Below, in pieces: positions 56,533-60,579 of a DNA stretch of 60,717 bases. Each line of letters begins with the position of its first letter. Position 1 is the first letter of the stretch. This stretch comes from Methylomonas sp. (GTDB lineage: Bacteria > Pseudomonadota > Gammaproteobacteria > Methylococcales > Methylomonadaceae): NCBI GenBank assembly GCA_002929135.1, contig PESC01000042.1:1-60717 (forward strand). Direction: 5' to 3'. The position numbers and the translations under genes are program-made. The notes under the pieces are model-generated. The model was not told the DNA's origin. It did not search any database and was given only the letters and a program-made list of their open reading frames with translations.

Positions 56533-56730
56533 GGTTTTACTCCCTGGAAAAAGCCGGGATTCTAAAAGCCTGGCCAGCAAATGGCCAGCACGACCAGACG
56601 GATAGCGGATGGCACGATTCGCGGGATGAATCAGGGGTAAAAAGGCTGCGATCTGGCGGGGAGTTTTTCTCGCTACCATGTGCCTGCGTGGCAGTAAGTC
56701 GCGGATTGAACCAGAACGCAGCGGGTAGCG

Positions 56731-56896
56731 CTAGGAGGCTGTCCGAGAATAGAGAACTTACTGCGGCAAAGCCCTTTTGGCCAGATTTCCCGCTCATTTT
56801 CGTTAAAGAGCGCAGCTGTTCGCCTCAAATGATCAAAAAATCTGACTCAAAAGAGCTTTTCCTCGCTACGGTTCCTATTTTCGGACAGCCTCCTAG
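56731..56896. mobile_element. MITE-like element, family B
   Basis: CTAGGAGGCTGTCCGAGAATAG (56731-56752) and the inverted copy CTATTTTCGGACAGCCTCCTAG (56875-56896) match at 21 of 22 bases and frame about 122 bases with no open frame. The outer CTAG on both sides may be the duplicated target. The TIR style is that of a DDE insertion sequence, so this is probably a non-autonomous derivative. It occupies the otherwise empty 441-base gap between the kinase gene and the NUDIX gene. Confidence 0.8.
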
Positions 56897-56973: not shown

Positions 56974-58563
56974 TCAGGTTGTGGCGGTCTGTTGCGATTG
57001 CGTGGCGTTCGTCGCCGGTAATCGTACCGTGAAGGTGGTGCCGTGATCTTTCTGACTCTCGACGCCTATTTCCCCGCTGTGCGCGGTGATGATGGTGTGC
57101 GCCATGGCCAGCCCCAGGCCCGAGCCTTCCGGGCAGTTCTCCACGGCATTGGCGCTGCGAAAATGCCGTTCGAAAATATGCGGCAAATCCTGGGCGGGAA
57201 TGCCGATGCCTCGGTCGGTGATGCGAAAAACCACATGATCGGTCTCGGTTGTCAGGCTGATTTGAATGTGGCCACCGTCTATGGAATAGCGGCAGGCATT
57301 TTCACCGAGAATGAATAGCACTTGCCGAAGGCGTTGCCGATCACCACGTACGATCACGCCAGTCTCCAGTTCTGTGCAACTTGCCGTTTGCTGCCGCTCC
57401 CTGACCATGACTTGTATGTCTTCCAGGGTGTTGTTCACCAGTTCGCTCATGTCGACATCGTCCCACTCGAATTGCAGATTGGCACTTTCGTTACGGGCCA
57501 GAAACAATAGGTCGTTGACGTACTTACCCAGTTGCATGGCCAGTTCGACGATGCGTTGCAAGCTGTCTTTATACTCGGTGACGTCGCGGTCGCGACCGCG
57601 CAGTGTCACTTCGGCTTCACCGCGAATCACCGTGATCGGTGTGCGCAGTTCGTGGCTGATGTCGGTCAGAAATGCTCGTCGTGCCTGATCCATGCGCTGC
57701 AAGGCCTGGTTGGTTTGTTGCAATTCATTGGTGCGTTCTTCGACTTTGTATTCCAGCAAAACCCGGCTTTCGCGGAGTTTTTCCTGCTGCAGGGCGAGTT
57801 TTTGCACCATCAGGTTGAAATGGCTGGCCAGATAGGCAAATTCGTCTTTGCCTTTCAGCGCGATACGGTACTTCAGGTTGCCTGATGCGATTTCATCGGT
57901 TCCTGTCATCAGTGCGGCGATGGATTTTCTCAGGTCGTTCAATAGTTTGACGCCGGAAATCCAGCCGAATAACGCTGCCGCGATAATTGCCCCCATGGCA
58001 AGTCGGCGGGATTGCGCCGCCTGCTGCCTCATGATGGCTGTCGCTTTATCGACCTTTTTTTGTTCATGAGCGATGGCATCGTCGATCAAGGGTTGAAAGT
58101 GGGTGTCGATGTCTTGCTCGGAAAATGTCGACAGCATTTGGAAAGCGAGCGCATGGTCGCCTTTACGCTTGAGGCGCTCGATGTCATCGAAACGATATTC
58201 GCTGGCTGCCAGAAAGGCTGTCAACTTGGCAACACGTTCGAGTTCTGCGGTGTTGTGTTCATTTGCGGCGATGAGGGTGATTCGTTTGCGCAAAATATCG
58301 ATAGCGTGTTGTAGTCGCTGCGAAGATTGGTCGATTTGTCTGCGGTCGGCAGGGCTTTCTGTCAACAGGTGATCCATGCGTTGCTTGAAATGCCGATAAG
58401 CCTGTTGTGACACATGTTCGTAAGCAATCAGCGTGTTGTGGGCGTTCTCGCTACGTTGGACATGGTGGGTAATCTTGCTTGTACTCCAATAGAGTATGGC
58501 CGCCAGCAAAACCACGAAAGTGAATGAAATGGCAATGACCAACGCAAGCTTGAGGTGATACAT
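56974..58563 (-). CDS. membrane sensor histidine kinase with HAMP domain
   Basis: A 529-residue kinase. Two membrane helices (about 5-27 and 187-205) enclose a helical periplasmic sensor; a HAMP domain follows (about 206-258, ALMTGTDEIASGNLKYRI), then a coiled coil, His304 in LTDISHELRTPITVIRG, N box (LFILGENACRYS), G1 (DRGIGIP), F box (IFERHFR) and G2 (GSGLGLAMAHTII). It is the third gene of a reverse-strand set after a kinase-like protein and a lipoprotein. No response-regulator gene follows; instead there is a MITE-like element. Confidence 0.9.
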   Translation of the reverse strand: MYHLKLALVIAISFTFVVLLAAILYWSTSKITHHVQRSENAHNTLIAYEHVSQQAYRHFKQRMDHLLTESPADRRQIDQSSQRLQHAIDILRKRITLIAANEHNTAELERVAKLTAFLAASEYRFDDIERLKRKGDHALAFQMLSTFSEQDIDTHFQPLIDDAIAHEQKKVDKATAIMRQQAAQSRRLAMGAIIAAALFGWISGVKLLNDLRKSIAALMTGTDEIASGNLKYRIALKGKDEFAYLASHFNLMVQKLALQQEKLRESRVLLEYKVEERTNELQQTNQALQRMDQARRAFLTDISHELRTPITVIRGEAEVTLRGRDRDVTEYKDSLQRIVELAMQLGKYVNDLLFLARNESANLQFEWDDVDMSELVNNTLEDIQVMVRERQQTASCTELETGVIVRGDRQRLRQVLFILGENACRYSIDGGHIQISLTTETDHVVFRITDRGIGIPAQDLPHIFERHFRSANAVENCPEGSGLGLAMAHTIITAHSGEIGVESQKDHGTTFTVRLPATNATQSQQTATT

Positions 58564-58567
58564 GGCC

Positions 58568-59122
58568 CTAATTGCCCTCGCTGCTTTCGTCCATCTGTTT
58601 TTCGACGTTCCGGATGGCTTCCAGCTTGTCCCGCAGTAATTGGACTTCATCTCTGGTGGTTTCTTGCGTCTCTTTCGCGGGCGGTTCAACCAATATGCTT
58701 TTGGATTTGCGATGGCTGGCTGCGGGCTTTTTACGCTGACTCAACAGATTGACCAGTGCTTCGGTATGGATGGCGACAAGCAGTTGCAATCGCGTATCGT
58801 TCAGTTCCAGAGTCTTGATTTGATGGATGATTTCGGTAATGTTGCCGCAATGGCTGGACAACAGGCGACCGGTCATCAATTTCAGATGGATTCTGGTGTC
58901 GGTTTGTTTGGTCAGGGCTTTGCAGATTTCGGCACGTTTGACCGGCGTCATGTTGGCCATTTCGGCACCGAAACGCAGTAAATCGTCGAATTCGGACGAG
59001 GTTTCTACAGCTTCGATGATAGGTGCGGGTGGCGACGGTTTGGCTTCATGTTGTGCGCAGCCAGGCAGTATTATCGGCACAGCGCTAAGCAGCATTAGCG
59101 GCAATGGTTTGAATTTCATCAT
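58568..59122 (-). CDS. lipoprotein, YfhG/QseG-like position
   Basis: A 184-residue lipoprotein. The signal ends in ILPGC with Cys22 as the lipid site. The mature part is helical and charged (LLRFGAEMANMTPVKRAEICKALTKQTDTRIHLKLMTGRLLSSHCGNITEII) and ends in a coiled-coil-like acidic tail. Location between two kinase-type genes resembles the GlrK-QseG(YfhG)-GlrR cluster of enterobacteria, in which the lipoprotein tunes the kinase. The start overlaps the stop of the upstream gene (ATGA). Confidence 0.75.
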   Translation of the reverse strand: MMKFKPLPLMLLSAVPIILPGCAQHEAKPSPPAPIIEAVETSSEFDDLLRFGAEMANMTPVKRAEICKALTKQTDTRIHLKLMTGRLLSSHCGNITEIIHQIKTLELNDTRLQLLVAIHTEALVNLLSQRKKPAASHRKSKSILVEPPAKETQETTRDEVQLLRDKLEAIRNVEKQMDESSEGN

Positions 59123-60579
59123 GCGGTCATTTCGGAAGGTAAAGGCAATCTGACCCGAATCAGTGTGCCTGGTGTTTCACGTTTGCTGTCGACCAATTCG
59201 ACCGTGCCGCCATGGCAGTGAGCGTGATGTTTGACCATGGCCAAACCTATGCCATGCCGGTTGCGGTCGCTGTCGGCGGTCAACGGGTAGCGGAAAAACG
59301 GTTGAAATACCCAGTTGCGATGTTGATACGGAATGCCGGGGCCTTGGTCTTCCACCTCCAGTAACAAATGGCCGTCGTCGGCTTGCAGCAGGATGCGAAT
59401 CTCGCCATGGGTTGGCGAGTGGTCGATGGCGTTATCGAGCAATTCCAGCATCATGTCATGCAGGGGTGTTTCCCACCCCGGCAGCATCAAGGGACTGAGC
59501 GCTGTCACCAGATGAATCGACTTGGCTTTCAGGCGCGGTTGAACTTCGTTGATGATGCGCAGTACCAAATCCTGCACATTGACACTGCGGATGGGTTCTT
59601 GCGGTTCTCGCTCCAATTGGGCCAGGCGCATCAGTGTATCGACCGAGGTATCGATGGTTTGATCGTGGCTTTTCAGGGTTTGCGCAATGGTTGCCAGATC
59701 GGCATCGAGCCGAATCAATTCGTGTTGCGCCAGTTCATCCAGTGTTTTGTCCAGCCTTGCCAAAACGGGCGTCAAGTCTTCGGCAAGTTGCATCATGAAA
59801 CGGTGTTTGGCAGCCGTTACGGCGATGACATGTTCGCGCAGCTCGTCCATGTGGGCGGCAATGTCGCGGACATCGGTAGGCGCATCGGCTATGGCCTGGC
59901 GGGCAAGGTCATCGAGGGCGAAACAGTCGATGGCTGCATCAAGGGTGCGCAGGCTTAGGTTTGTCGCTCGTGTTAGCCATAATGCAATCAGGCCGGCAAA
60001 AATCATTAGGGCAGTACCCGTCGCCAATAGCGTTGTCTGCAACGTGTCGGATTGCTGGCGCAAGGCTCTAAATGCTTGGTCGACGCGCGATTGTAGTGCG
60101 GTAGACAGTGCCATGGCGGAATCGCGCAAGCCTTGAAAGGCCGTGTCCATTGCTGCATCCGGGCTGTTCGGGGATGTGCTGGCAGTCAGTCGCTGATAAA
60201 TCAGAGTTTCCTTTTCGCCTAGTTCGTGCGCAACGAGTGCGATATTGCTGTCGAGTTTCATCGCCAGCAGCGATGATAATGCCTGATGGAAGGCAGCGCG
60301 GGCTGCCTCATAGGATTCGCGCTCATAGGGTTGTTTAATATCCGGGGCGGACAGCAGCAGGAATAATCGGGCCTTGCGCTCGACATCTGCCGCTTTCTGT
60401 AAGACTTGCGACAGCGTCCGGGTTTGCTCGAATATCTGGATGGAGGTCTGTTTGTTCAATGTCGAGGTTTCTCTGACGGAAAATGACATCCAGACCAGCG
60501 CCAGGTATAGCGGTACAACCGCCAGTGCAAAGCCTGATCCGATCAGAAACTTCAGCGAAAACGTGCGCTTGAAAGACAT
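59119..60579 (-). CDS. histidine-kinase-like protein lacking the phospho-acceptor histidine
   Basis: A 486-residue membrane protein with the GlrK/QseE-like layout: helices at about 10-32 and 184-203 around a helical periplasmic domain, then a dimerisation region and an ATPase domain. The ATPase boxes are intact (N box DMMLELLDNAIDHSP, G1 VEDQGPGIP, F box VFQPFFR, G2 RHGIGLAMVKHHAH). At the H box, however, the sequence is HRFMMQLAEDLTP (259-271), without the histidine of the usual SHELKTP. It may bind ATP and act by contact with the partner kinase rather than by phospho-transfer. Confidence 0.8.
   Translation of the reverse strand: MSFKRTFSLKFLIGSGFALAVVPLYLALVWMSFSVRETSTLNKQTSIQIFEQTRTLSQVLQKAADVERKARLFLLLSAPDIKQPYERESYEAARAAFHQALSSLLAMKLDSNIALVAHELGEKETLIYQRLTASTSPNSPDAAMDTAFQGLRDSAMALSTALQSRVDQAFRALRQQSDTLQTTLLATGTALMIFAGLIALWLTRATNLSLRTLDAAIDCFALDDLARQAIADAPTDVRDIAAHMDELREHVIAVTAAKHRFMMQLAEDLTPVLARLDKTLDELAQHELIRLDADLATIAQTLKSHDQTIDTSVDTLMRLAQLEREPQEPIRSVNVQDLVLRIINEVQPRLKAKSIHLVTALSPLMLPGWETPLHDMMLELLDNAIDHSPTHGEIRILLQADDGHLLLEVEDQGPGIPYQHRNWVFQPFFRYPLTADSDRNRHGIGLAMVKHHAHCHGGTVELVDSKRETPGTLIRVRLPLPSEMTA

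Follow-up and report, generated by a model that had tools for sequence, protein, structure and literature searches.

A GlrK/QseE-derived pseudo-histidine kinase as the probable co-receptor of a second sensor kinase in Methylococcales

The window, the whole stretch of DNA analysed here, is the entire 60,717-nucleotide contig PESC01000042.1 (C16) of a Methylomonas sp. genome of 2.57 Mb in 63 contigs (GCA_002929135.1). On its reverse strand three genes span positions 60579 to 56974, encoding a pseudo-histidine kinase derived from GlrK/QseE (gene 1), a QseG-like lipoprotein (gene 2) and a complete sensor histidine kinase (gene 3). Judging from comparison with relatives in the order Methylococcales, we consider it probable that gene 1 descends from a GlrK/QseE sensor kinase, no longer phosphorylates, and now serves in the membrane as a co-receptor tuning the gene 3 kinase. 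What the sequences of these relatives show is the loss of the phospho-acceptor, the retention of the main QseG-binding residues, a conserved operon, the co-occurrence of the two kinases and a stepwise loss of the kinase core.

We propose that the periplasmic sensor of gene 1 would still bind the lipoprotein, and that the signal would be passed sideways to gene 3 through periplasmic and transmembrane contacts, to which in most species the HAMP domain and the dimerization and histidine-phosphotransfer (DHp) domain probably contribute as well. His304 of gene 3 would then phosphorylate an OmpR-type response regulator, which in the window genome would be the product of an unlinked gene on contig C5. 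The ancestral output, GlrR with sigma-54, would have been lost from the genus. Because QseG activates QseE, activation is our first guess for the sign of the effect.

Ancestry and acceptor site of gene 1

A profile built from 16 gene-1 proteins aligned over its positions 8-482 with the QseE chain 9m08_C (E 2.1e-52), which belongs to the QseG-QseE structure deposited as PDB 9M08 (PMC12691602), and gene 1 of the window alone aligned over 8-482 as well (E 1.5e-13). Counting residues along 9m08_C, QseE His259 falls opposite an Arg of the gene-1 family and opposite Glu267 in the window, so that by alignment gene 1 is a GlrK/QseE derivative whose phospho-acceptor histidine has been lost. The family was represented by 64 rows after removal of 15 duplicates between the two genome sources, and the acceptor could be counted in 58 of them, as L066 and L160 stop short of it and L154-L157 are without a DHp domain. 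Ten residues occur at this column (Arg 41, His 4, Leu 4, Glu 3, and one each of Asn, Tyr, Lys, Cys, Ile and Thr), and histidine is thus found in 4/58 gene-1 proteins versus 11/11 GlrK outgroup kinases. The corresponding autophosphorylation-site mutant, QseE-H259A, is inactive in E. coli (PMC6075780).

In a midpoint-rooted tree, 57 gene-1 rows are split from 11 GlrK rows with full support, the window gene having the longest end branch (2.06) and an unsure placement. The four proteins with histidine at the acceptor (L029, L032, L034 and L037, all Methylomonas; L115 is a copy of L029, and L151, titled M. koyamae, of L037) form a single clade nested among Arg-bearing members. They read VAHEIEAPL, which is not a normal H box, and the codon is CGC (Arg) in L028 and CAC (His) in L029. 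The histidine of this clade is best read as a reversion in which the rest of the H box was not restored; its phosphorylation status would bear on how reversible the loss is. The Thr of the HExxT motif, which we take to be a phosphatase motif, is present in only 4 of 57 gene-1 proteins, while the Asn of the ATP site is present in 55 of the 57 that have the position.

At the positions of QseE E69 and R70, each of the 64 gene-1 proteins has the same residues as QseE, and at the position of R73 there is Arg in 43 and Lys in 21 of them; in Salmonella, R70A abolished and R73A reduced the binding of QseG (PMC12691602). In the window, the motif DVERKARLFLLLSAP holds the equivalents of E69, R70, R73, V77, L78 and P81. 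On the side of the lipoprotein, the gene 2 helix KLEAIRSMEKQLDE can be aligned to KLENLTDIERQLST in the QseG protein of E. coli K-12, with I, E and K as the equivalents of L209, E213 and R214. Searches of PDB sequences, Pfam and NCBIfam gave no QseG match for the lipoprotein family, and QseG is reported to show strong sequence divergence (PMC12691602). Because sequence profiles gave no such match, the identification rests on position, the helix motif and a fold comparison in which the best structural matches, albeit weak ones, were QseG chains. By its lipobox, its place directly after a GlrK/QseE relative, its C-terminal helix and, weakly, its fold, gene 2 is a QseG relative.

A sequence-only reading of the window had described three overlapping or nearly overlapping reverse-strand genes, namely a kinase relative with its ATP-binding boxes kept and its acceptor histidine lost, a lipoprotein, and a complete kinase with His304, followed downstream by a miniature inverted-repeat transposable element (MITE). 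All of these features are borne out, and the recurring gene order in relatives and the contrast in acceptor residues with the GlrK outgroups show them to be no accident. Gene 2 overlaps the end of gene 1 by 4 nt and is separated from gene 3 by a 4-nt gap, and the element downstream is found as described, with further copies in the genome. Gene 1 has LAEDLTP in its acceptor region and retains the N, G1, F and G2 boxes, and the alignment of the H box with GlrK/QseE placed no histidine at Glu267. HATPase_c lies above the Pfam cut-off in both kinases (E 8.8e-23 in gene 1, E 6.2e-27 in gene 3) and is the only such domain of gene 1, HisKA and HAMP being found by Pfam in gene 3 only; among the 25 best NCBIfam matches listed for each kinase, all names stay below their cut-offs. 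Close relatives with a normal H box, which would have spoken against that reading, do not occur in the family.

Gene 1 is a paralogue able to coexist with a normal GlrK, as G057 has a separate full GlrK-QseG-GlrR locus (L055) besides gene 1 and several GlrK-like hits with a normal histidine come from genomes that also hold gene 1. Among 20 lower-scoring GlrK-like hits checked, 16 are of the ordinary GlrK type (SHE[IL]KTPL), three are without the histidine and one (L217) is unreadable. The three are more distant GlrK relatives (L207 in G109 and L208 in G097, both with Asn, and L212 in G104, with Asp), and two of them come from genomes in which a member of the gene-1 family and an ordinary GlrK are present as well. 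Histidine loss around GlrK may have happened more than once.

Operon conservation, response regulator and co-occurrence

The relatives of the window locus are Methylococcales methanotrophs, and the order pseudokinase, QseG-like lipoprotein, kinase and OmpR-type regulator is common to many of them. Laboratory methanotrophs with the linked operon include Methylomonas sp. LW13 (L116) and Methylobacter tundripaludum SV96 (L147). The titles of 50 loci include Methylomonas, Methylobacter, Methylovulum, Methyloglobulus and Methylocaldum; L146 bears the title Methyloversatilis, and L125 that of an uncultured proteobacterium. Within the genus the three genes stand in this order in 26 loci, with the regulator directly after gene 3 in 26/26. 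Among the 40 genome-contig loci with gene 3 it follows directly in 36, and the other four contigs end at most about 210 bases past gene 3. Gene 3 carries SHELRTP in 67/67 rows; the regulators, mostly 241-245 residues long, carry the strict motif LDLGLPD in 56 of 62 rows, one row being cut by a contig end (164 residues). Rows that occur in both genome sources are counted twice in these two totals.

In the window genome the orthologue of this regulator stands without the kinase genes on contig C5, beside apparent pyruvate kinase and RND pump genes (by eye) and with no kinase next to it. It is 73% identical to the regulator of L028, the next best match reaching 39%, and the orphan is likely the displaced partner of gene 3. 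The sequence-only reading had found no regulator, which is correct for the window itself; as a feature of the system the absence has to be rejected, in view of the regulators of the relatives and the C5 orthologue. Its view that the two kinases form a conserved unit fared better, since the three-gene order recurs in the 26 same-genus loci and the kinases co-occur even when unlinked. The ancestral regulator appears to have been replaced. No GlrR orthologue was found in 37 same-genus genomes, the window genome included (no match above 47% identity), compared with identities of 57-74% in those genomes of the order that have GlrR; GlrR lies in the same locus in 11/11 GlrK outgroup loci, and here gene 3 stands in its place downstream of gene 1 and the lipoprotein.

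Of 301 Methylococcales genomes, 70 have both kinase genes, 4 only gene 1, 4 only gene 3, and the remaining 223 neither. Presence was sorted by hand from the scores (74 genomes with gene 1, 74 with gene 3), gene-1 membership being taken as at least 398 bits, or the window genome G000, or a high-identity N-terminal partial (G270, G134, G118, G143, G077, G022). Short gene-1 forms can escape such thresholds, as they did in G115, G122 and G125, which are three of the four gene-3-only genomes and carry a very short, sensor-only gene 1 followed by the lipoprotein and gene 3. Joint absence was seen among genomes listed in genera g1, g13, g15 and g20, other members of which have both genes. Orthologues of gene 3 and of the regulator were found in the same 29 of 61 genomes.

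The association does not depend on linkage. For four stand-alone gene 1-lipoprotein pairs (L144, L145, L146, L149) and for G057, gene 3 was found elsewhere in the genome, and the regulator was beside this unlinked gene 3 in all three genomes checked (G057, G117, G139). Stand-alone pairs of pseudokinase and lipoprotein were seen at L144, L145, L146, L149 and L054, at a distance from gene 3 of about 22-35 kb in G117, G139 and G080. G134 has two gene 3-regulator pairs on different contigs (L198, L199), with one gene 3 cut short, which may reflect duplication or the mixing of strains.

Loss of the kinase core and the weighing of explanations

Arranged by what has been lost, the family forms a natural deletion series. 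It starts from GlrK with its acceptor histidine, as in the outgroups, and continues with gene 1 devoid of that histidine (54/58). In L051 and L053 the ATP site is also destroyed, with the operon complete (L150 is a duplicate of L051). L154-L157 (whose contigs also appear, in reverse order, as L184-L187) are without both DHp and ATPase domains, keeping HAMP and a tail of 54-83 residues; lipoprotein, gene 3 and regulator follow in L154, and the contigs of L155-L157 end earlier. In L190-L192, from genomes of 2.2-2.9 Mb, HAMP is gone too, which leaves the first transmembrane helix (TM1), the sensor, the second (TM2) and a short tail. Being short, and with an identity of only about 30%, these proteins had escaped the first genome search. 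Lipoprotein and gene 3 come after all three, and the regulator follows in L190 and L191, the contig of L192 ending too early.

Taken together, lipoprotein and gene 3 follow the core-less gene 1 in 4/7 cases, which are exactly those whose contig continues. The ERKAR motif is kept in 7/7 of these proteins, and the binding helix of the lipoprotein in L154, L155 and L190-L192 (in L156 the contig end truncates the lipoprotein, and in L157 none is seen). In L154 and L155 even the 4-nt overlap between gene 1 and the lipoprotein gene persists despite the loss of the core. A core-less gene 1 cannot phosphorylate, yet it stays with the lipoprotein and gene 3, and a co-receptor is therefore the simplest reading. 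Two ideas of the sequence-only reading do not survive this comparison. ATP binding is not an essential property of gene 1, given the destroyed site in L051/L053 and the missing core in L154-L157 and L190-L192. Nor does gene 1 seem to act on gene 3 through the lipoprotein: by homology to QseG-QseE the lipoprotein is gene 1's own ligand, and because QseG is the ligand of QseE, a route from lipoprotein to gene 1 to gene 3 is more likely.

Selection was followed by the ratio of non-synonymous to synonymous substitution rates (dN/dS, NG86 estimates) in chosen pairs, 13 of gene 1, 12 of gene 3 and 3 of GlrK (two of the GlrK pairs share a row). In gene 1 the ratio stays below 0.2 in every domain in all 13 pairs. 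The DHp domain of gene 1 evolves faster than the sensor half in 11/13 pairs, while that of gene 3 evolves slower in 11/12 pairs, with one tie, and that of GlrK slower in 3/3. From these reversed ranks and the low ratios it follows that the phosphotransfer helix of gene 1 has lost its special constraint and that the protein as a whole has been maintained.

The ATP-binding domain that most members retain could nevertheless have a task of its own. If catalysis were split, the ATP-binding domain of gene 1 would phosphorylate His304 of gene 3 within a heterodimer; such a scheme fits the purifying selection on the domain and the fact that most members retain the N, G1 and G2 boxes, and in the FasBCA model the kinase domain of one partner is proposed to phosphorylate the histidine of the other (FasB on FasC; PMC12675982). 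However, gene 3 has a complete ATPase domain of its own, L051 and L053 have complete operons with a destroyed ATP site, and L154-L157 and L190-L192 are without the whole domain, gene 3 following in the four contigs that continue. We regard split catalysis as decidedly unlikely; as the universal function of gene 1, ATP donation is ruled out by these losses, but it could still operate in proteins with an undamaged domain, that of the window among them. It is also unlikely, in our view, that the pseudo-DHp/ATPase core determines the balance of kinase and phosphatase by binding either the gene 3 core or the regulator, with the sensor serving as input only, in the way of RetS and DivL, which are known modulators of a second kinase. 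Most members retain the core, the fold predicted for gene 1 appears intact (mean predicted local distance difference test (pLDDT) score 78.4, predicted template modelling (pTM) score 0.41), and the top Foldseek match of the gene 1 model is DivL (4q20), nearly tied with ordinary HisKA kinases; but the core-less lineages keep the unit, and the DHp domain of gene 1 is relaxed relative to the sensor half.

We give very little credence to the view that gene 1 is a decaying GlrK, retained only as the upstream gene of an operon needed for gene 3 and the regulator. Ten different acceptor residues, repeated domain losses and the long branch of the window gene would suit a relic, but dN/dS is low in every domain, the E69-R70 equivalents never change, the pair with the lipoprotein is retained where gene 3 lies elsewhere, and the gene overlap outlasts the core in L154 and L155. 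It is scarcely credible that the acceptor has merely moved and gene 1 is still an active kinase. There is a histidine eight residues before the acceptor column in the window (its own His259) and in 3/58 proteins in all, and four residues before it in 30/58. However, position -8 is Gln in 49/58, position -4 is Gln in 17/58 and other residues in 11/58, and the Thr of HExxT is rarely kept; a shifted acceptor was rejected because the nearby histidines are not conserved.

Several observations weigh against the co-receptor reading itself. The ATPase domain of gene 1 is under purifying selection in 13/13 pairs (dN/dS 0.046-0.199) and its ATP boxes are kept in most members, so the domain has a task for which a pure co-receptor would have no use. 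Where the core persists, it may contribute contacts through DHp or a tuning that depends on ATP, and this would account for the continued selection. In the window, the D80 equivalent is Ala, and given this loss and the long branch, gene 1 could be decaying in this particular genome. The lipoproteins do not conserve R219, one of the contact residues of QseG. With regard to co-occurrence, the association is confounded by shared ancestry, which the Fisher test ignores. G077, which is 99% complete and has a core-less gene 1, and G143 gave no gene 3 match even at a looser E of 1e-60, and G077 is a real exception unless its gene 3 lies in an assembly gap. The other gene-1-only cases are G022, with a gene-1 fragment at a contig end, and G270 (75% complete). 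Conversely, in G017 (77% complete) and G145 (72% complete) gene 3 and the regulator are present with no gene-1 match. G109, in which the distant His-less relative L207 is found with no gene 3 match, could be a fifth gene-1-only genome; only G109 could add to that count, because G097 and G104 are already counted.

Parallels in known systems and features of the window

The closest relative by descent is GlrK/QseE-QseG-GlrR/QseF of enterobacteria and other Pseudomonadota, which shares with the present system the near-full-length alignment of the kinase, a lipoprotein gene directly downstream, and recognisable counterparts of the main QseG-binding sensor residues and the lipoprotein's binding helix. 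It differs in that here the acceptor histidine is lost, GlrR is missing from the genus, and a second, orthodox kinase with an OmpR-type regulator provides the output. The best functional parallel is RocA, the accessory protein of CovS/CsrS in group A Streptococcus, which is related to sensor kinases, has no kinase activity of its own and exerts its effect on a second kinase. RocA interacts with CsrS in the membrane, its transmembrane domains being sufficient (PMC6635533), and its predicted acceptor histidine is dispensable (PMC7028121); in the gene-1 family such dispensability shows in natural variation only, in the 54/58 proteins with a lost acceptor and the seven without a core. Unlike gene 1, whose mode of action we infer, RocA has six putative transmembrane helices and a different sensor, and the parts of these reports cited mention no lipoprotein.

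FasBCA of group A Streptococcus likewise has two kinase-like proteins and one regulator per locus, with one kinase domain dispensable (PMC12675982). FasC, however, the proposed pseudokinase there, has an acceptor histidine and does not need its kinase domain, whereas gene 1 is without the histidine and its partner is complete. DivL-CckA (PMC4211667) and RetS-GacS (PMC12675982) are further cases of histidine-kinase-like modulators of a second kinase, with different sensors and partners. In Corynebacterium glutamicum, inactivated ChrS still heterodimerises with HrrS and alters output, as a laboratory-evolved mutation of the ATPase domain and not as a conserved natural family (PMC9491836). To our knowledge, neither DivL-CckA nor RetS-GacS includes a QseG-type lipoprotein.

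Searches of the open-access literature on methanotrophs, pseudo-histidine kinases and two-kinase operons, covering titles and the beginnings of abstracts, returned no description of this system. A hybrid kinase lacking the conserved histidine is mentioned in PMC11481889. Its elements are each known (QseG-QseE, RocA, DivL, FasBC), and the combination and the deletion series appear to be new. The pseudo-histidine kinases we found in print amount to a handful of experimentally studied examples, most of which are single proteins. In the Methylococcales, a single order gives a graded natural deletion series of a pseudokinase whose ancestor's complex, QseG-QseE, has been structurally solved. Two questions thereby become directly testable: which features a histidine kinase retains after phosphorylation has been lost, and by what means a sensor in the membrane can pass its signal to another kinase. 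It also suggests a route by which an outer-membrane lipoprotein sensor is rewired to a new regulator. Our confidence is evenly balanced on whether a QseE sensor and QseG lipoprotein front end was moved from a sigma-54 to an OmpR-type pathway, the kinase becoming a membrane co-receptor that speaks sideways. That the Methylococcales preserve intermediate steps of that move, with acceptor, ATP site, kinase core and HAMP lost, has in our judgement about as much for it as against it. If true, methanotrophs, which are important for methane removal, would have an envelope-response pathway that we did not find described in the literature searched.

Table 1. Positions of the kinase-lipoprotein genes, their key sites and associated elements (window coordinates unless a contig is named)
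Feature	Position	Strand	Description
Gene 1	59119..60579	-	GlrK/QseE-derived pseudo-histidine kinase, 486 aa; TM1, periplasmic helical sensor, TM2, HAMP-like linker, DHp without acceptor His, intact-looking ATP-binding domain
Gene 1 Glu267 codon	59779..59781	-	Column aligned with QseE His259
Gene 1 periplasmic motif DVERKARLFLLLSAP	60343..60387	-	Counterpart of the QseG-binding segment of QseE
Gene 2	58568..59122	-	QseG-like lipoprotein, 184 aa, lipobox Cys22
Gene 2 C-terminal helix LLRDKLEAIRNVEKQMDE	58586..58639	-	Counterpart of the QseE-binding helix of QseG
Gene 3	56974..58563	-	Complete sensor histidine kinase (sensor, HAMP, HisKA, HATPase_c), 529 aa
Gene 3 His304 codon	57652..57654	-	Phospho-acceptor, SHELRTP
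MITE-like element	56728..56896	.	169 bp, 49-nt inverted ends (80% complementary), downstream of gene 3
OmpR-type regulator orthologue, window genome	G000:C5:41690-42391 (L110:7685-8401 = C5:41684-42400)		Alone on contig C5

The MITE-like element sits where the relatives have their response regulator gene. It is multi-copy: contigs C31, C50 and C54 carry nearly identical partial copies of 109-122 nt, and shorter copies lie at other places in the genome.

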